Counted from the stretch's first letter, positions 53,714 through 62,301 are shown. The stretch is 64,000 nt of DNA from Deltaproteobacteria bacterium (GCA_016219175.1 JACRCD010000014.1:1-64000), one strand, 5' to 3'. Translations and numbers: made by a program. The notes: a model not told the origin generated them from the sequence alone.

Positions 53714-55081
53714 CTATTGACCAAGCCCCAGGAGGATGAGCAACTCGTACGAAAGCGCGGCCACCAGGCCGGCGGCGGGCAGGGTCAGGACCCAGGCCAT
53801 GACCATGCTCTGGGCGACACCCCAGCGGACGGCGGACAGCCGCTTACTGGCGCCAACCCCGAAGATGCTGCCGGAGATGACATGGGTGGTGCTCACCGGC
53901 ATACCGAAATGGCTGGTCACAAACAAGACGATGGCGGACGATGTCTCGGCGGCAAAACCGTGCACCGGCTCCAGGCGGATTATTTTATGCCCCATGGTCT
54001 TGATGATACGCCAGCCCCCCACGGATGTCCCCAGGGCCATGGCTGCCGCGCAGGAAAACACCACCCATTTGGGCACCACGGGTTCCGGTAGAATCCGGGC
54101 GGAGACCAGGGCCATGGTGATGATGCCCATGCTTTTCTGGGCATCGTTAAGACCATGGGTAAAGGCCATGGCTGCCGCGGAAAGGATCTGCAGGTGGCGA
54201 AAACTGGCGCTGACGCGGTCCGGATGAACGTGGGCCAGGGTTTTGAAGATACCGCCCATCAAAATAAAGCCGAGGATGAAACCCATGGCCGGAGAACCCA
54301 CCAGGGGAATGAGAATCTTGTGGACAATGCCGTTCCAGAGAACAAACGGCAGCCCGCCGTGGATAATGGCTGCTCCGCATAATCCGCCGATCAGGGCATG
54401 GGAGGAACTGCTGGGAATGCCGAATTTCCAGGTAATCAGGTTCCAGGCGATGGCGCCAAGGATGCCGGCCAGGATGACCACCTGGAAGAGGTGCTGGTTG
54501 GAGGCCAGCTCATCGGCGTAGGCATTTTCCAGCAGTAAACGGTTCGTGTTGCGTAATTCCTCGGGTTTCAGCTTTCCGGAATTCCGCGCTTTCGCCACTG
54601 TTTTCTCCGGCAATGGTATCCCGGCAAACCGCTCCGCCGCATAAAAATCAACCTGCCTGATGACGCTGTTCAAGTCATCCACCATGGCGGCCAGCAATTC
54701 CCGGGCAGGAGGGTCCGACAACACCGTATATTGTTCGAGCAACTGCCTGGTTGCGGGTGAAAGGTGTCCGGCCAGATACCCGGAAACCGGGTCAGCGGGA
54801 TTCTTCAGCTTGGCGGCGAACGCCGCCGGCTGATGGATATCCACGGCCTGGAAGCGGGCCGTATCGATCAAGCCGCTGGCCACCGTTATCGCCACCTGGG
54901 TGGCGACCAGGGCGCCGACAAAATTCAGGCAGGCCGCCATGGCAATGGCCTGGCGCGGCGAGAGCACCCGGGTCGAGACGACCGTGGCGATGGCGTTGGC
55001 CGTATCGTGAAAACCGTTGATATAGTCGAAGACCAGCGCCCCTATCACAACCAGCACGACCAGCAGCGACACCTCAAGCAT
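53714..55081 (-). CDS. pit: Pit-type low-affinity phosphate permease
   Basis: This 455-residue PiT-family transporter has the duplicated signatures YINGFHDTANAIATVVSTR near 25-43 and FTHGLNDAQKSMGIITMAL near 307-325. A hydrophilic insertion (about 75-195) separates the first helices from the rest. It should import phosphate with H+ or Na+. It overlaps the DUF47 partner by eight bases. Confidence 0.93.
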   Translation of the reverse strand: MLEVSLLVVLVVIGALVFDYINGFHDTANAIATVVSTRVLSPRQAIAMAACLNFVGALVATQVAITVASGLIDTARFQAVDIHQPAAFAAKLKNPADPVSGYLAGHLSPATRQLLEQYTVLSDPPARELLAAMVDDLNSVIRQVDFYAAERFAGIPLPEKTVAKARNSGKLKPEELRNTNRLLLENAYADELASNQHLFQVVILAGILGAIAWNLITWKFGIPSSSSHALIGGLCGAAIIHGGLPFVLWNGIVHKILIPLVGSPAMGFILGFILMGGIFKTLAHVHPDRVSASFRHLQILSAAAMAFTHGLNDAQKSMGIITMALVSARILPEPVVPKWVVFSCAAAMALGTSVGGWRIIKTMGHKIIRLEPVHGFAAETSSAIVLFVTSHFGMPVSTTHVISGSIFGVGASKRLSAVRWGVAQSMVMAWVLTLPAAGLVAALSYELLILLGLGQ

Positions 55082-55703
55082 ACTTCACGACCACGCTTTC
55101 GATAATATTGGCGACATCCTCGCATTTATCCACCGCCGTCTCTATCCGATCGTATATCTCCTTCCATTTAATGACGTTAATCGGATCGGCGTCCGGGGCG
55201 TTAAGCAGACCGGCAAGGGCTTTGCGGAACGCGGCGTCATGCTCGTTTTCGATCTGATGGATACGGATGAAAAGACCCTGGACCGCATCCCGATTGGGCC
55301 TGGTGCGGAGTGAGCTCACCGCCTCAAGCATGGCTTCGGTGATTTGCACCAGCATCGCGACTAAAGCTTCCATATCAGGGCGTGGTTGGGTGAGCTGATA
55401 GAGCGCCATCCTGCCACTGCAGCCCTCAATGCGGTCGGTCACGTCGTCCAGCTCCCCGGACAGGGCATGCAGGTCTTCTTTATCCAGCGGGGTGACAAAG
55501 GTACTATCGATCTTTCTGGCCAGCTCATGGGTAATATGGTCGGCCTCGCTCTCTATCTCCTTGATCCGCGCCGCGTATTCGGCAAGATTGCCGAAGTCAT
55601 TGAACAACCGGTAAAATTCCTTGGCCGCGCTGACTGCCGCATTCGCCTGTTTTTCAAGCAACTCGTAGAAGATATGTTTCTTGCTCATTCCTGGTAAACG
55701 CAC
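55074..55703 (-). CDS. DUF47/PhoU-like accessory protein of Pit
   Basis: This 209-residue all-alpha protein of the DUF47 (TIGR00153) family has EIESEADHITHELARKIDST near 49-68 and DDVTDRIEGCSGRM near 86-99. DUF47 genes lie next to pit genes in many bacteria and probably tune phosphate uptake. The start GTG/ATG 55703 gives a slightly long N-terminus; MSKKHIFYELL at 55688 is also plausible. Confidence 0.9.
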   Translation of the reverse strand: MRLPGMSKKHIFYELLEKQANAAVSAAKEFYRLFNDFGNLAEYAARIKEIESEADHITHELARKIDSTFVTPLDKEDLHALSGELDDVTDRIEGCSGRMALYQLTQPRPDMEALVAMLVQITEAMLEAVSSLRTRPNRDAVQGLFIRIHQIENEHDAAFRKALAGLLNAPDADPINVIKWKEIYDRIETAVDKCEDVANIIESVVVKYA

Positions 55704-55940: not shown

Positions 55941-57431
55941 TCACTGTTCCGCCTCGTCGCTCCTTGGTTCCACCGGCAGGGTGATGGTAAAGGTCACTCC
56001 TTTCCCATCCGGATTGTTCGCCACGGCAATACTGCCGCCGTTATGCTGCTCGATGAGACGCTTGGTGATGGCCAGGCCGAGTCCGGTTCCCTGCGGCTTG
56101 GTGGTAAAAAACGGGTTGAATATTTCCTCAAGCGCTTTGCTCTCTATGCCTTTGCCGTTATCGGCAATGGAAATTCGCACGGTCCCCTGCGCGGCTTGGC
56201 GGGTCTGTATGGTTATAACCCCTGGCCGCTCAGAGATGGAGGAGGTGGCGTCCATGGCATTGAGAATCAGGTTCAAAAAAATTTGTTGCAGCTGGCCGGG
56301 ATCAGCAACGATATGCGGCAGGCCGGGACTGAAATCCTTGACGAATTCGATTTGCCTGGCCGGACTTTTTTCCTTATTCCGCGGGGTTTTCAGGGAAAAA
56401 CGGGCGGATTTAATCGTTGCTTCCAGGATCTGGTTGACATCCAGGGAAACCATCTCCGGTTTGGGGGGGCGGGCGTAGTTGAGCAGTCCTTTGAGCAGGG
56501 CAGTGATTCTGTCAATTTCCTTGATGACCCGGTGCAGAACTTCTTTGTCCTCGGAGTCAAGAGGTGAATCCTGGCTGAGAACCTCCATGGATACCTTGAT
56601 GCCGGCCATGGGGTTTTTTATTTCATGGGCCATGCCGGCCGCAAGTTCACCCACCACGGCCAGACGTTCCGTTTCCTGTAATTTATTACACTGATCCTTC
56701 AGGGAAGCGGCCATCTCATTGAACGACTCGGCCAACTCGCCAAACTCATCAGCTAATTTTTTCTCTATCCGGTATTCCAGCTTGCCTGCTTTGATTTTCC
56801 GCGTTGCGCCCAACAGTTCCGTGACGGGCTTGGTAATGCTTCTGATGAAATACAGGGAGATGAGGATGCCTACGAAGAATGCAAAAGTCAGGGTAGCTAT
56901 CAATATATTTTTCGAGGCAGCCACTTCCGCCATGGCCGCCGTTGTTTTTTGCCGCAGGGCGTCGTTGGCGGTCATGGCCATCCACTGCGACTTCTCAATG
57001 ATCCTGTCCCCGATATCGGCCGCAAAGGTCTGCAGCCTCTTGATCCTTTGCTCGTCCGCCGTGGACGTTATGAAGTAACTGAGCGCCTCCTGGTACTGCT
57101 CGGTCAGCTCCTGCAAATGAAGGATTTCCTGCTCCACCCGCGGCACATGATGGCATTCCGTACATGTTTTTGCCCGGTCACGGAGTTTGAGGACATTATC
57201 CACGATGATGTCCAACTCCTTGCCGAACAATGTGCCGGTAGTATACAGATTTGACTGGACCGTCTGGACGTTGATGACCAGATCCTGCCTGATAACCTCC
57301 ACCTTGTGCAGGGTAAGCAGAGCGGTAAGATTGGCGGTTGTCGTGTTGATAATGTGCAGGGTGGTGACGATACCGGCGAAAAACAGTAAAAAAAGAATAA
57401 AGAAGGAGATGATAATTTTTTTCTTCATCAC
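55941..57431 (-). CDS. Sensor histidine kinase with periplasmic c-type heme motif
   Basis: This 496-residue kinase has membrane helices near 6-26 and 176-196 and a periplasmic domain between them. A CXXCH heme-binding motif (CTECH, C90-H94) lies in that domain. A HAMP domain, HisKA (GELAAGMAHEIKNPMAGI, His 269) and HATPase (LILNAMDATSS, ADNGKGI, GTGLGLAIT) follow. The covalent heme could sense redox state, NO or CO. It overlaps the PhnD-like gene by four bases. No response regulator is in the operon. Confidence 0.93.
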   Translation of the reverse strand: MMKKKIIISFFILFLLFFAGIVTTLHIINTTTANLTALLTLHKVEVIRQDLVINVQTVQSNLYTTGTLFGKELDIIVDNVLKLRDRAKTCTECHHVPRVEQEILHLQELTEQYQEALSYFITSTADEQRIKRLQTFAADIGDRIIEKSQWMAMTANDALRQKTTAAMAEVAASKNILIATLTFAFFVGILISLYFIRSITKPVTELLGATRKIKAGKLEYRIEKKLADEFGELAESFNEMAASLKDQCNKLQETERLAVVGELAAGMAHEIKNPMAGIKVSMEVLSQDSPLDSEDKEVLHRVIKEIDRITALLKGLLNYARPPKPEMVSLDVNQILEATIKSARFSLKTPRNKEKSPARQIEFVKDFSPGLPHIVADPGQLQQIFLNLILNAMDATSSISERPGVITIQTRQAAQGTVRISIADNGKGIESKALEEIFNPFFTTKPQGTGLGLAITKRLIEQHNGGSIAVANNPDGKGVTFTITLPVEPRSDEAEQ

Positions 57432-58345
57432 TCTTTTCCGTGTTCCGCTGTGCCTGGCAAGGCCTCCAGCGCCATGGCTTCCACCGTGGCAAAATCCGCT
57501 TTACTCGACTCGATGAACCGCAGGGCCTCAAACTGATTGAGAACATTTTGCCCTTGAGGCGTTTTGTCCATCCGCAACAGGACTTCACTCAACCTTGCCC
57601 GTAAATCCCCGGCAATTTCATTTTTTATGCAGAGGGTGATCTCGGGGACCTTTGGGGATCGGGCAATGATAGACAACTCCTGGGCAATTGACGGGTCATT
57701 GTCAACCAGTTTGTCAAAAACCGTATTTTTCGCCGCGCCGATATCGGCCCTGCCATCAAGTACCGCAAAAATCGTTGAGGCATGGCTGCCGGAATAAATA
57801 AATCGATTAAAATATTTTTCAGGGTCCGTAATGCCGCGCTGCCGCAAATAGGCCAGGGGGAAGAGGTAGCCTTCCATTGTTGCCGGGTCGACGAAGACGA
57901 TGCTTTTCCCCTCCATATCCTTGACGTCGCGTATGCCGCTGTCTTTGCGCACAAAGATATATCCCTGCGCCGTTGACTCCCCGTTTCGATTGACCGGGTT
58001 GGCTACGGGTTGCAAATCCAACTCCCTGATCCCCATGGTAGCGGTATAAGAGGTGAGAAACGCTCCATCCAGATTAAGGGATTTAAACCGTTTGATCACT
58101 TCACCATAGCGGCTCATGATGGTGAGATTGACCTTGACGCCAAGCTGACCGGAAAGATAGCCGGCTAAAGCGCGATAGCGTTCCATCTGCTTAAAAATGT
58201 TGTGCTCGGGCTCGATGCCGATCAGCAGTTCCTCTGTCTGCCCGGCTGCCGAAACAGGCAGGGCTGCCAGGGCGGTAAGACACATGAGCCCCCAGGCAAT
58301 AAGCCATCTTGTGACACCATGCGCCGACAGAGGCCACCGTCTCAT
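57428..58345 (-). CDS. PhnD/SsuA-type solute-binding protein
   Basis: This 305-residue exported protein (signal about 12-34) matches the phosphate/phosphonate-type binding family: SYTATMGIRELDLQPVANPV near 98-117, DMEGKSIVFVDPATMEGYLFP near 143-163, DIGAAKNTVFDKLV near 200-213. No permease or ATPase is linked, so it may feed ligand information to the kinase rather than serve transport. Confidence 0.85.
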   Translation of the reverse strand: MRRWPLSAHGVTRWLIAWGLMCLTALAALPVSAAGQTEELLIGIEPEHNIFKQMERYRALAGYLSGQLGVKVNLTIMSRYGEVIKRFKSLNLDGAFLTSYTATMGIRELDLQPVANPVNRNGESTAQGYIFVRKDSGIRDVKDMEGKSIVFVDPATMEGYLFPLAYLRQRGITDPEKYFNRFIYSGSHASTIFAVLDGRADIGAAKNTVFDKLVDNDPSIAQELSIIARSPKVPEITLCIKNEIAGDLRARLSEVLLRMDKTPQGQNVLNQFEALRFIESSKADFATVEAMALEALPGTAEHGKE

Positions 58346-59283
58346 TTTATTACCTCGGTCGCTTCAATGAGCAGATTGATGGGGAAGGTAATGCCGAGAT
58401 GTTTAGCCGCCACCAGATTAAACACCAGCTCCGTATCCCGGAAAGTATGGGAGGCAATGTTGCCGGGCTTTTCACCAAGCAGAATTTGTGTTGCCATTTC
58501 AGCCGCCGTTTCTCCCTGCAAATGAGCGGGTTGAAACAGGGTCATCACCACCCCGGCTTCCGAAAAGTCCGGAAAGATATCCGCCGTGGGAATCTTTTCT
58601 TTACGAAGAATCTCCATGATATCCTCAAGCAGCAGATGGACAAGCGAGCTTCCTGTAATGAAGACGGCATCCCAGTTTTTTGTCTTCAGCTTATCCAGGT
58701 CAACGCGCGACCGGATATCAATTTCCTCAGCCTTTATGCCCTGCTGGGCAGCAAGCTCTTTCATTGTTTCGTATTGACGAACGGAATCCTCCTCAACGCT
58801 GCTGAAGACGATACCAAGGGTATTGACGGCTTTGAAGCCTTTGAAATATCTGATAATGCTGGACAGAGGCACCTTAAAACCGCAACCTGTCACATTCTTA
58901 CCGGCAACGGCGGCCTGGTCGGGTTCGTACAACCCGGCGTAGACCAAGGGAATGCGGCTTTTTTCGTGGATGACGGCCTGGGCGGCGGGAGCACCGTAGG
59001 TCACGATCAGGTCCACATCAAACGCTATGAGCTTGCGGGCGGCATTGCTCCAGGATATGGCATTCGGAAAAGGTCGTTGCAGGATAATCTCGATTTTTTC
59101 ACCGCCGGCGGTCCTTCGGCCCAGCTCGGCGATAAAGCGCTCGTGCATTGCTCCATAATAAGGGATATCGCCGGTCAGGATGACGCCGATGCGTTTTTGG
59201 GCGTGGGCATCCGGCGGCGCGGCGGCGAGGACGACAAGCGCGGCAAACAGTATGCTCAGCAACGGGCGGAGTAAAGTATTCAA
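58342..59283 (-). CDS. ABC-type substrate-binding protein (PF04392-like)
   Basis: This 313-residue exported protein (signal ending AHA) has the ABC sugar/amino-acid-type binding fold seen in TrpX/PF04392 proteins: GVILTGDIPYYGAM near 32-45, VTYGAPAAQAVI near 92-103, VYAGLYEPDQAAV near 112-124 and IPTADIFPDFSEAGVV near 226-241. As with the PhnD-like protein, no transporter genes are present. It overlaps the PhnD-like gene by four bases. Confidence 0.8.
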   Translation of the reverse strand: MNTLLRPLLSILFAALVVLAAAPPDAHAQKRIGVILTGDIPYYGAMHERFIAELGRRTAGGEKIEIILQRPFPNAISWSNAARKLIAFDVDLIVTYGAPAAQAVIHEKSRIPLVYAGLYEPDQAAVAGKNVTGCGFKVPLSSIIRYFKGFKAVNTLGIVFSSVEEDSVRQYETMKELAAQQGIKAEEIDIRSRVDLDKLKTKNWDAVFITGSSLVHLLLEDIMEILRKEKIPTADIFPDFSEAGVVMTLFQPAHLQGETAAEMATQILLGEKPGNIASHTFRDTELVFNLVAAKHLGITFPINLLIEATEVIK

Positions 59284-59284
59284 T

Positions 59285-61282
59285 TTAAAAATACCTTTTT
59301 AGTCTCAAGGTGGTGGTGAATACATTGCCGTCCAACAGGCCGTACGCCCTGTCATCATAAATATCCAGGTAGGATCTGAGCCCGAGGTCCCACTCCTTGG
59401 AAAGCTTTTTGATAATCTCAAAAGACAAGTCGATTTCCGAGGCCTTCAAGGCTGAAAACGAGGAAAGGGAAAATGGCGCGCCACCCACGACATCGTCATA
59501 GCCGGCTTCCCCCTCAAGCAAGGTGTAAGTCAGGCCACCACTCAGGGTAATATCTTCCCGCGGCAGGTAATGAAGCGCCAAGGAGAACGAGTTTGATTCA
59601 TCGGAATAGGGAACACCGGCATCTATATAAGGCAGATCAGGGATGTTTTCCATGAGCCATTTCCCGTAAGCCAGATCCTGTTCAACATCCCAGCGCTGAT
59701 AGAACCAGCTGGCCGTCAGGGATACGGTGGGGGAAAGCTCGGTCGACAGGCTGGCGAGAAACTGATCACGCTGCCCGTCTCTTTCGCCGGTCTCCAGCAG
59801 CAGCGCAGGGGAAGGATTGAGATAATGCAGACCATCGCGCTCCGTTACGGACAGGATGTATTCCAGATAGACGTTGAGCCAGGACGTCGGCGTGCAGGTC
59901 GTGGTCAACCGCAGCTTGTTGGAGTTATCCGGGCTGTTATTATAGGCCGGATGGCTGTAATTTTTGTATTCATAGCTGGCCTTTACCTTGACCCTGTCCA
60001 GGGGTTTGGCGTGCGCCGTGAGATTAATGGTGTGGATATCGGTTTGCTCCGGCACCGCCACCCATTCAGCGAAATCCGTCCGCTCGAGCTGGGAAAATTC
60101 ATAGGTGCCGAAAAGAGAAAGGATGTTCAATGGCCTGTACCGTGTGGACAGGGAAAAGACGTCCCTGTCATAGGAAATGCCCTCCCGCACCGCATAGTTT
60201 ACCGTATTGTTCAGCCCGGTGAGGGTAACGGTCTCGGGAGTGTCCATATCCAGATCCTTGTGCCGGTACTTGAAGAAGAGGCCAATGAGCGGATCGGGTA
60301 TCCAGCTGAAATCAAAGGCCCCCTTCCAGGTGGTGGATTCCGTCAGGCTATAGTTGTTCTTCTGCCGCAGATTGCTGAGGGTGGCCGCGGCTACAATGCC
60401 GCCGGTATAGGACGAGTGCAGCTTTACGGAATTGGCCGCTGATTCGGTTTCCGGGACAACATTATGCGGATAGGTGTCGGCGGGCCTGGAAAGATCGGCG
60501 GAAGCGGGATATAAATCATAAAGAATATCGTGGCGCCCCGGATTAAACTCGTCCTGATCGTGGGCATATTCAATCTCGACCGGACCGACATGACTGTTGG
60601 CCCCAAGCTTGAGCGCGTTCGACCTCCAGTCGATATCGCGTGATTGCGAAGTGATATTGAGCTGATCAAAATCTCCCAGCAAAAAACGCTGCTGAACCTT
60701 GCCGTCCTGCTCAACGTGGCGGTTGTTTAAAAAGGTGTGAAACGGGAAATCCGCGGCCTTGAGCCTGAGCGACAGCAGATTGCTGGTAAAATCGGTATAA
60801 TAGCTGCCCGCCGCGTTGCGGTCGGTGTAGACGAGACCGGGCGGCTCCCCGGGCAACTGATAGTTCAGATGATCAAGATTATGGTGAGCGCCGACCAGAA
60901 TGTCTCTGAAAAGAAGCAAATCCTGATAAGCGAAACCGGCATCCGTATAAAAATCATAATTGCTGAGAAACTCGGCATTGGCGTGATAGCGGTAGGGAAG
61001 GGGACAGGAGAGCAGGTCCAGACCAAAGGTGAGAGAGGAATGAGGGTAAATATATTCCGCCGCTTTCAGCGAATCCTCGCTGGAGAACCATCTGTATCCC
61101 AGGAAATAGTCCCCTTCCGTCTCGTAATAGACACCCGGTTCTTCCTTCTCCGGGGTGACGGTTGGCCCGGCGGCAGGGGTTGATTCCGCGTTTTCAGCCG
61201 CCATGCCGGGGAAAACCCCGCAGCAGAGAGCCAACCAGACAACAGAAACATTCAAGATACAATGCCTTTTATTGTATCTCAT
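59285..61282 (-). CDS. MtrB/PioB-like outer-membrane beta-barrel
   Basis: This 665-residue protein has a signal peptide (about 10-30) and alternating amphipathic strands to the C-terminus, ending in the aromatic LKRYF. Its length and repeated DxRSNALKLGANSHVG- and HALHYLPR-like strands suit an MtrB/PioB-type porin. It immediately follows the decaheme gene with a four-base overlap, the usual porin-cytochrome order. Identification rests mainly on context, because barrel sequences diverge. A CXXC motif typical of gammaproteobacterial MtrB was not seen. Confidence 0.75.
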   Translation of the reverse strand: MRYNKRHCILNVSVVWLALCCGVFPGMAAENAESTPAAGPTVTPEKEEPGVYYETEGDYFLGYRWFSSEDSLKAAEYIYPHSSLTFGLDLLSCPLPYRYHANAEFLSNYDFYTDAGFAYQDLLLFRDILVGAHHNLDHLNYQLPGEPPGLVYTDRNAAGSYYTDFTSNLLSLRLKAADFPFHTFLNNRHVEQDGKVQQRFLLGDFDQLNITSQSRDIDWRSNALKLGANSHVGPVEIEYAHDQDEFNPGRHDILYDLYPASADLSRPADTYPHNVVPETESAANSVKLHSSYTGGIVAAATLSNLRQKNNYSLTESTTWKGAFDFSWIPDPLIGLFFKYRHKDLDMDTPETVTLTGLNNTVNYAVREGISYDRDVFSLSTRYRPLNILSLFGTYEFSQLERTDFAEWVAVPEQTDIHTINLTAHAKPLDRVKVKASYEYKNYSHPAYNNSPDNSNKLRLTTTCTPTSWLNVYLEYILSVTERDGLHYLNPSPALLLETGERDGQRDQFLASLSTELSPTVSLTASWFYQRWDVEQDLAYGKWLMENIPDLPYIDAGVPYSDESNSFSLALHYLPREDITLSGGLTYTLLEGEAGYDDVVGGAPFSLSSFSALKASEIDLSFEIIKKLSKEWDLGLRSYLDIYDDRAYGLLDGNVFTTTLRLKRYF

Positions 61283-62301
61283 CGGATAAACCTCCCCCCT
61301 CCCGCGGTTGACGGCACATCAGACCCATGGATGGTGGAGTGACAGTCCGTGCAGCGCGTATAAAAGGCCCTGGCCCTCTCGGCGGAAATACTACCGCCCT
61401 CCTCCTTGTTTATTCTGTGGCCCTCATGGCACTGGAGGCACAAAAAAGGCTCCCGCGCGTTGAGGAGTTTGCTGTTAACCGAACCATGCGGGCTGTGACA
61501 GTTGAGACAGTTTTCCACCACATCGGCATGTTCATAAAGGAACGGACCTCTCTTGTCCGGATGACACTGGACGCAGGTTTCCTTGATACCGTCCTGCAGC
61601 AGCCCCTGGTCGGCGAACCCTCCATGCGGGTTGTGGCAGTCCACGCAAAATACCCTCCCTTCCTTGAGGGGATGATGGCTCGGCATGGAAAACTGGGCCT
61701 GGGCGGACTGATGGCAGGTAAAACAAAGTTGGCCCGAGGCCAGGGGGGTAACCTTTAAATCAGGACCGGCGTGCACATTATGGCAGGCAAAGCAGGATAC
61801 TTCGTTGACGGCATGGAGTCCGGCATTCCAGTTATGCAGGTTAAACGTGGCGTTGGCCGTGTGGCACTTGAGACAGATGAGCGACTGGGCCGTGGCCGGC
61901 AGGCTTTTTAAGTCGATCAATGTCTGGAAATCACACGCGGTCCTGATGCCTTTTCCGGCGTTCGTCTCAACCAGCTCCGGGGTCAGTCCCTTGACGGCCA
62001 GGCTGCCGGGGCCATGGCAGGATTCACAGTCCACCAGGGGCATGCCGGAATCCTTTTGCAGCTGGGCGCCCATGGTGCTGGCGTCAAAGGCCAGCCTCAG
62101 CCGGTCATGCTCATGACAGGCGGCAAGACAGTTTTGAGTGCCGATGTAATCGGCATCAAGGTTGCCGACAATCATCTTCTCATATTCACGGATCGGCAGA
62201 ATCGTCTTTGATTCCTTTAAGCCGGCGCATCCGCTCAGGAAGGCAAGCAATGCCATCATGGTCAGGAATGATTCGCGCAGCTGGTGTTCCCTGGTAAACA
62301 T
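61279..62301 (-). CDS. Decaheme c-type cytochrome lipoprotein (MtrA/DmsE-like)
   Basis: The start is ATG 62301 (AGAGGT six bases upstream), giving 340 residues. A lipobox (LAFLSGC, Cys near 25) anchors it. It has nine CXXCH motifs plus one CXXXCH (CLAACH), ten hemes in all, with the repeated CHxPH-type spacing (CHNPHGG, CHSPHGS) of DmsE/MtrA proteins. It would carry electrons across the outer membrane when embedded in the barrel encoded downstream. Confidence 0.92.
   Translation of the reverse strand: MFTREHQLRESFLTMMALLAFLSGCAGLKESKTILPIREYEKMIVGNLDADYIGTQNCLAACHEHDRLRLAFDASTMGAQLQKDSGMPLVDCESCHGPGSLAVKGLTPELVETNAGKGIRTACDFQTLIDLKSLPATAQSLICLKCHTANATFNLHNWNAGLHAVNEVSCFACHNVHAGPDLKVTPLASGQLCFTCHQSAQAQFSMPSHHPLKEGRVFCVDCHNPHGGFADQGLLQDGIKETCVQCHPDKRGPFLYEHADVVENCLNCHSPHGSVNSKLLNAREPFLCLQCHEGHRINKEEGGSISAERARAFYTRCTDCHSTIHGSDVPSTAGGGRFIR

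Follow-up and report, generated by a model that had tools for sequence, protein, structure and literature searches.

A predicted MtrAB-type electron conduit of Desulfobulbales encoded together with an AioX-like binding protein and a heme-motif sensor kinase

The 64,000-nucleotide stretch of DNA analysed here (the window; GCA_016219175.1, JACRCD010000014.1:1-64000, from a Deltaproteobacteria bacterium) contains a five-gene operon, transcribed on the minus strand from 62300 to 55941, which encodes a multiheme cytochrome, an outer-membrane barrel, two periplasmic binding proteins (SBP and X) and a sensor histidine kinase (S). The reading that we favour, with a probability of about 0.6, is that this is an electron conduit with a co-encoded redox or ligand sensor, the kinase of which acts on the regulator of nanowire cytochromes encoded elsewhere in the genome. 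A single transcript would then specify both an MtrAB-type outer-membrane conduit and a periplasmic sensor for it.

All five reading frames are open, and their order and coordinates agree with the first-pass annotation, which was made from the window sequence and had proposed that the five genes are translationally coupled and that no permease or ATPase accompanies them. Both proposals hold. The cytochrome and barrel genes overlap by ATGA, as do those of SBP and X, a gap of 1 nt separates the barrel gene from that of SBP, and the X and kinase genes overlap by TGATG; the SBP and X genes share exactly 4 nt in each of the 16 operons that have both of them intact. Neither a permease nor an ATPase is encoded within the operon or adjoining it, the neighbours being a GH15 gene upstream and genes for a DUF47 protein and a PiT phosphate transporter downstream. 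We note that the latter two (53714-55703) form an ordinary pair.

The first gene (61279-62300, minus strand) begins with an ATG at 62300, immediately preceded by AAGAGG, and its product falls within the MtrA/DmsE family of c-type cytochromes (TIGR03508, 258.6 bits against a cut-off of 192.2) and carries a lipobox, LSGC, that predicts a lipoprotein. It has nine CXXCH motifs and a single CX3CH, the atypical first motif CLAACH (62113-62130, minus strand; NCLAACH with its preceding residue), and the earlier description of it as decaheme is right as to family, while the number holds only if heme is attached at the CX3CH site as well. The NCLxxCH form is kept in nearly all of the relatives seen, with one exception (L105). 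The second gene product (59285-61282, minus strand) matches the MtrB/PioB family PF11854 weakly, at 28 bits over a cut-off of 23, and is below the cut-off of the TIGR03509 subfamily (25.5 versus 240.05 bits). Despite this weak sequence match, its AlphaFold (AF2) model (pLDDT 84) aligns with MtrB (6R2Q_B) at a Z score of 24.1 and an rmsd of 3.1 Å over 550 residues, and the next-best fold, at 14.6, is almost ten units lower. On the strength of the model we assign it the same fold as MtrB, as had been suggested, placing it outside the curated TIGR03509 subfamily. A TonB-dependent receptor was considered and rejected, siderophore receptors scoring about 14 versus 24 for MtrB. The cytochrome and barrel would together form an MtrAB-type porin-cytochrome conduit for putative electron transfer across the outer membrane; the decaheme lipoprotein, seated inside the barrel, would shuttle electrons between the periplasm and the surface.

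As in MtrCAB, DmsEF and PioAB, an MtrA/DmsE-family cytochrome gene lies beside and in the same orientation as one for an MtrB-fold barrel; unlike those systems, the cytochrome here is predicted to be a lipoprotein and its first heme motif is CX3CH. The operon encodes no MtrC-like surface multiheme cytochrome, and its other three genes are those of the PF04392-type SBP, the AioX-like X and kinase S. The Geobacter-type GSU2203/GSU2204 models are among the nearest NCBIfam models for the cytochrome and barrel, but the window proteins score under their curated cut-offs (238.9 versus 325 bits and 71.5 versus 350 bits, respectively). Members of the GSU2203/GSU2204 clade have ten CXXCH motifs, a CXXCH in the barrel and often an in-frame TGA, and genes for SBP, X and the kinase do not adjoin them in the loci inspected.

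A search for the PhnD family, to which X belongs, over 58 relatives recovered members at 34-77% identity, separated by a clear gap from a background of less than 30%, and gene order was inspected around these and around relatives of the barrel. The complete five-gene operon is present at 15 loci in five families of the order Desulfobulbales (f1, f4, f11, f12 and f13), which comprises sulfur-cycling relatives of cable bacteria; three further operons each have one gene broken or uncalled, and pieces at contig edges are seen in f3, f7 and f15. A contig scan with very specific patterns returned 12 loci, all from near relatives, and the wider sample comes from the broader genome search. Named hits include metagenome-assembled genomes (MAGs) labelled Desulfurivibrio, Desulfobulbaceae and Desulfocapsa, among others. 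Recurrence across families excludes chance, and the pairwise distances of the five proteins correlate (r 0.84-0.95), which is the pattern that joint inheritance of the five genes would leave. The central proposal of the first-pass annotation, that the conduit is joined to a sensory unit and is not a standard porin-cytochrome set, was to stand or fall with synteny in relatives; it stands, the binding proteins and kinase being part of the complete operon and kept with the cytochrome in all five families. No account of the five-gene operon turned up in a literature search on conduits combined with binding proteins, kinases, heme or nanowires. Among other neighbours, an NrfA-like cytochrome (PF02335, seven CXXCH motifs) is encoded after the conduit operon on the same strand in one MAG (L041:5856-7502), and an ammonium transporter gene lies beside a conduit operon in one genome (L131:3233-4447) and beside a regulator/OmcS-like cluster in a different one (L199:12067-13716).

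The fourth gene (57428-58345, minus strand) encodes X, a PhnD/AioX-like periplasmic binding protein (PF12974, 196 bits), whose best solved relatives are AioX (8ED5/6ESV; 27% identity), then PtxB and ArrX. The 23 conduit X proteins form one group in a tree (support 0.68). Of the AioX pocket, X retains Tyr88 and His192, while Cys106 is replaced by Thr, Tyr131 by Ala, Ser163 by Glu and Asp210 by Lys; among the conduit relatives the Cys106 position is Thr, Ser or Asn, such that the arsenite-binding cysteine is absent, and in relatives the Tyr131 position is Ser or Thr. Phosphonate and arsenite were both rejected as ligands on these grounds, and because of the misfit we claim no ligand for X. AioX, ArxX and ArrX have been described as sensory proteins, and the ligand-bound X is thought to activate S, and S then R (PMC5908839). 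The arrangement here is similar to AioXSR, ArrXSR and ArxXSR in that a PhnD-like X gene overlaps the gene of a kinase, and from its sequence the X-S pair looks like the front end of an XSR system, but it does not fit an arsenite sensor.

Kinase S (55941-57428, minus strand; ATG at 57428, with a GTG at 57431 also possible) has a transmembrane segment, a periplasmic domain, a second transmembrane segment, and HAMP, HisKA and HATPase domains. No response regulator is encoded in the window operon or adjoining the kinase gene, and in this clade S lacks one of its own. The periplasmic domain is predicted to fold as a four-helix bundle, with a single CTECHH between its helices 2 and 3 that includes the heme-c motif CTECH (residues 90-94; 57150-57164, minus strand), of which C90, C93 and H94 are invariant in 28 aligned kinases; H95 is present in 94% of 50 motif-bearing sensors, a set selected by the motif itself. 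The earlier label of a heme-type kinase is supported at the level of the motif, which predicts covalent attachment of heme. The kinase model has a pTM of just 0.41, at which the axial heme ligand cannot be named, and the matches listed in a fold search include kinase cores only, with no solved structure for the sensor. Sensing had been placed at the cell surface, and this we revise, since the sensor is located in the inner membrane, from which it would read the periplasm. In relatives from f3, f7, f11, f12 and f15 the same sensor is joined to a longer kinase (about 745 aa in total), and the one that was scanned (L131) is a hybrid with PAS and receiver domains. We also note three X-kinase pairs of the same families (L075, L077 and L078) in which the kinases lack a CXXCH.

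Several known sensors share parts of this design. AioS has no cysteine at all, unlike S with its heme-c motif. In TtrS and ThsS a PhnD-like domain fused to the kinase serves to sense a respiratory sulfur oxyanion. The window operon shares the PhnD-like domain and gives a weak NF040750 hit, but X is not fused to the kinase, and the sensor domain of S is a predicted helical bundle with a heme motif. The Cache domains of the DUF3365/Tll0287 type (PMC12889525) and the PAS domains of Geobacter GSU0582 and GSU0935 (PMC3460858) likewise place a covalent-heme motif in the extracytoplasmic part of a transducer; they differ from the four-helix bundle predicted here, the gene of which lies beside that of a binding protein.

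A paralogous cluster in the same genome (L039), referred to as heme-XSR, has its own X, its own S and, alongside these, an NtrC-type regulator (G000:C36) of the kind missing from the window operon. This regulator is AioR-like and of the sigma-54 type (32% identity to AioR), and the cluster further encodes an NHL protein along with a cytochrome that has triheme c7-type domains. Two hexaheme proteins encoded there are OmcS-like, and one of them matches OmcS (6EF8) at 1.8e-60. Identity between the window S and the paralogous XSR kinase is 24% for the sensor, against 67% for the DHp (HisKA) segment (56454-56669, minus strand) and 58% for the catalytic domain, and the same pattern of low sensor and high core identity is repeated in six other genomes. 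The sensor of S is closest to those of other conduit kinases, and its transmitter to those of heme-XSR kinases. The sensor tree places every conduit kinase in a single group (support 94), and the AU test rejects a grouping of short conduit with XSR sensors (p-AU 1e-50). For the core, by contrast, it rejects a single conduit clade (p-AU 1e-4) and does not reject a grouping of short conduit with XSR cores. These p values are descriptive because the groups were named after the FastTree trees had been viewed. The conflict between the trees indicates a transmitter exchange, by which kinase S seems to have been rewired onto the nanowire regulator. An orthologue of the regulator (63-100% identity) occurs in 11 of the 12 short-kinase genomes searched, and in the twelfth (G245) its frame is split; none was found in the two hybrid-kinase genomes tested, whose kinases have a receiver domain of their own, nor in G058, which is 72% complete and in which the kinase is not on the contig. 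Cytochromes with 22 and 26 CXXCH motifs are encoded near the heme-XSR clusters of two f4 genomes (L200 and L201).

A plausible wiring is that X controls S through the periplasmic heme-c bundle, by itself or jointly with the heme state of S, as AioX does for AioS, and that S, having a transmitter of the heme-XSR type, most likely phosphorylates the NtrC-type regulator of the paralogous system, which with sigma-54 would act on NHL and OmcS-like cytochrome genes. Use of the conduit, or an electron-acceptor signal, would in this way be coupled to production of surface nanowire cytochromes. The likely target of S is the regulator of the separate OmcS-like locus and not the conduit operon, ahead of which no sigma-54-type promoter rises above background. 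The strongest evidence for this wiring, as a genetic argument, comes from G008 and G033, which have the regulator and OmcS-like genes with no adjacent X or S, and in each of which the one heme-sensor kinase of the family that was found is the conduit kinase. The fuller proposal, that a heme-c kinase under the control of an AioX-like protein responds to the state of the conduit or of its acceptor and that transmitter exchange allows joint tuning with the nanowire cytochromes, is more tentative, and we put it slightly below even odds.

The hybrid-kinase relatives count against a nanowire regulator as the target, since they would send their output to the fused receiver domain, and an XSR cluster complete with X and S persists in the window's genome, such that the conduit S might only compete there or act as a phosphatase. 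It could be instead that X and S are a local sensor for the conduit operon, or for other genes through an unlinked regulator, and that the likeness to XSR transmitters reflects ancestry with no cross-talk. AioXSR and related systems do regulate adjacent respiratory genes (PMC5908839), and signalling of the hybrids to their own receiver, together with a conduit operon that lacks a sigma-54-type promoter, fits this explanation. We nonetheless consider it unlikely, though deserving some weight, given the conflict between sensor and core trees, a regulator orthologue that occurs with short kinases and was not found with hybrids, and the two genomes, G008 and G033, in which the regulator has no other kinase of the S type.

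In 10 of 12 clusters the NHL gene, OmcS-like genes or both have sigma-54-type sites ahead of them that score at least 26, for which the background is 9 per 64 kb per strand; a clear site was not found in the L198 and L200 clusters, and none at this score precedes the neighbouring triheme-domain cytochrome genes or the conduit operons. Simple enumeration gave no activator-binding palindrome common to the regions that precede the sigma-54 sites, and no shared activator-binding site linking the conduit operon to the nanowire-cluster regulator was found. One of the genomes (G024) is that of Desulfurivibrio alkaliphilus, in which both published qPCR primers for DA_402 match exactly. This OmcS-like gene, at L069:5911-7206, is preceded by TGGCACGCCGTTTGCT at a distance of 182 nt, and a heme-XSR cluster begins about 2.3 kb away. 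Its expression is reported to increase more than 100-fold in iron-oxide respiration coupled to sulfide oxidation (PMC12545173). Searching the main text of that study for regulator terms gave no match, and the heme-XSR cluster near DA_402 is not mentioned there; the D. alkaliphilus evidence covers this cluster and DA_402, not the five-gene operon. The interval L069:5911-9124 contains two OmcS-like genes, DA_402 included, each behind a near-consensus sigma-54 site.

The third gene (58342-59283, minus strand, TTG start) encodes SBP, a PF04392 (ABC_sub_bind) periplasmic binding protein identified by profile (111 bits) and synteny, which follows the barrel in every clade relative with downstream sequence. 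At 13 distant barrel loci, from the same class (L134-L140) and the same phylum (L172-L177), SBP is kept and the cytochrome is called in 12 (not in L172), and all are without X and S. Since the cytochrome, barrel and SBP occur alone in other classes, SBP belongs to the conduit core, as a probable periplasmic partner, whereas the X-S pair is confined to the conduit of the Desulfobulbales. Two binding proteins are present, as had been reported, but they are not of one kind: judged by sequence and gene context, SBP is the older conduit part and X is half of an AioXS-like sensor pair. Following SBP is an MtrC-like cytochrome with 12-13 hemes in L134 and L136, a methyl-accepting chemotaxis protein (MCP) in L175 and a receiver-domain protein in L174 and L177. 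MCP genes just downstream of the trio are seen in two distant genomes (L134:13561-15273 and L175:11801-14176). The neighbours of the trio in other classes (L173-L177) were considered as co-functional and set aside; those inspected seem mostly to be housekeeping, receiver-domain or MCP genes, and we read no function from them.

That SBP is inseparable from the cytochrome and barrel, at loci that lack X-S as well, and that the operon has no permease, might suggest that SBP and X are part of the electron path, for example as carriers of a redox shuttle or metal complex, and that S merely reports on X. This is doubtful, as SBP has no heme motif and the gene that follows it is often a signalling gene (X-S, the receivers of L174 and L177, or the MCP of L175), which favours sensing over a role in the electron path.

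Proteins of the PF04392 and PF12974 types are mostly transport receptors, and orphan receptors can share permeases. That SBP and X are ordinary receptors serving ABC permeases elsewhere in the genome is nevertheless very improbable, given that PhnE, the permease searched for, is below its curated cut-off in seven of ten operon-bearing genomes, including the 98.4% complete genome of the window (best match 20 bits, cut-off 216.7), that the overlap with the kinase gene is conserved and that two sensory proteins, AioX and ArrX, are among the solved structures nearest to X.

Under our preferred reading of a conduit with its own sensor, these observations bear on how bacteria that respire extracellularly sense solid acceptors and choose to build conduits and cytochrome nanowires. 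They provide a named and conserved set of sensor, kinase and regulator in the Desulfobulbales, including the heme-XSR cluster beside DA_402. They also show that a PF04392 binding protein consistently accompanies one clade of conduits in different classes, an association of which we found no description in a literature search.
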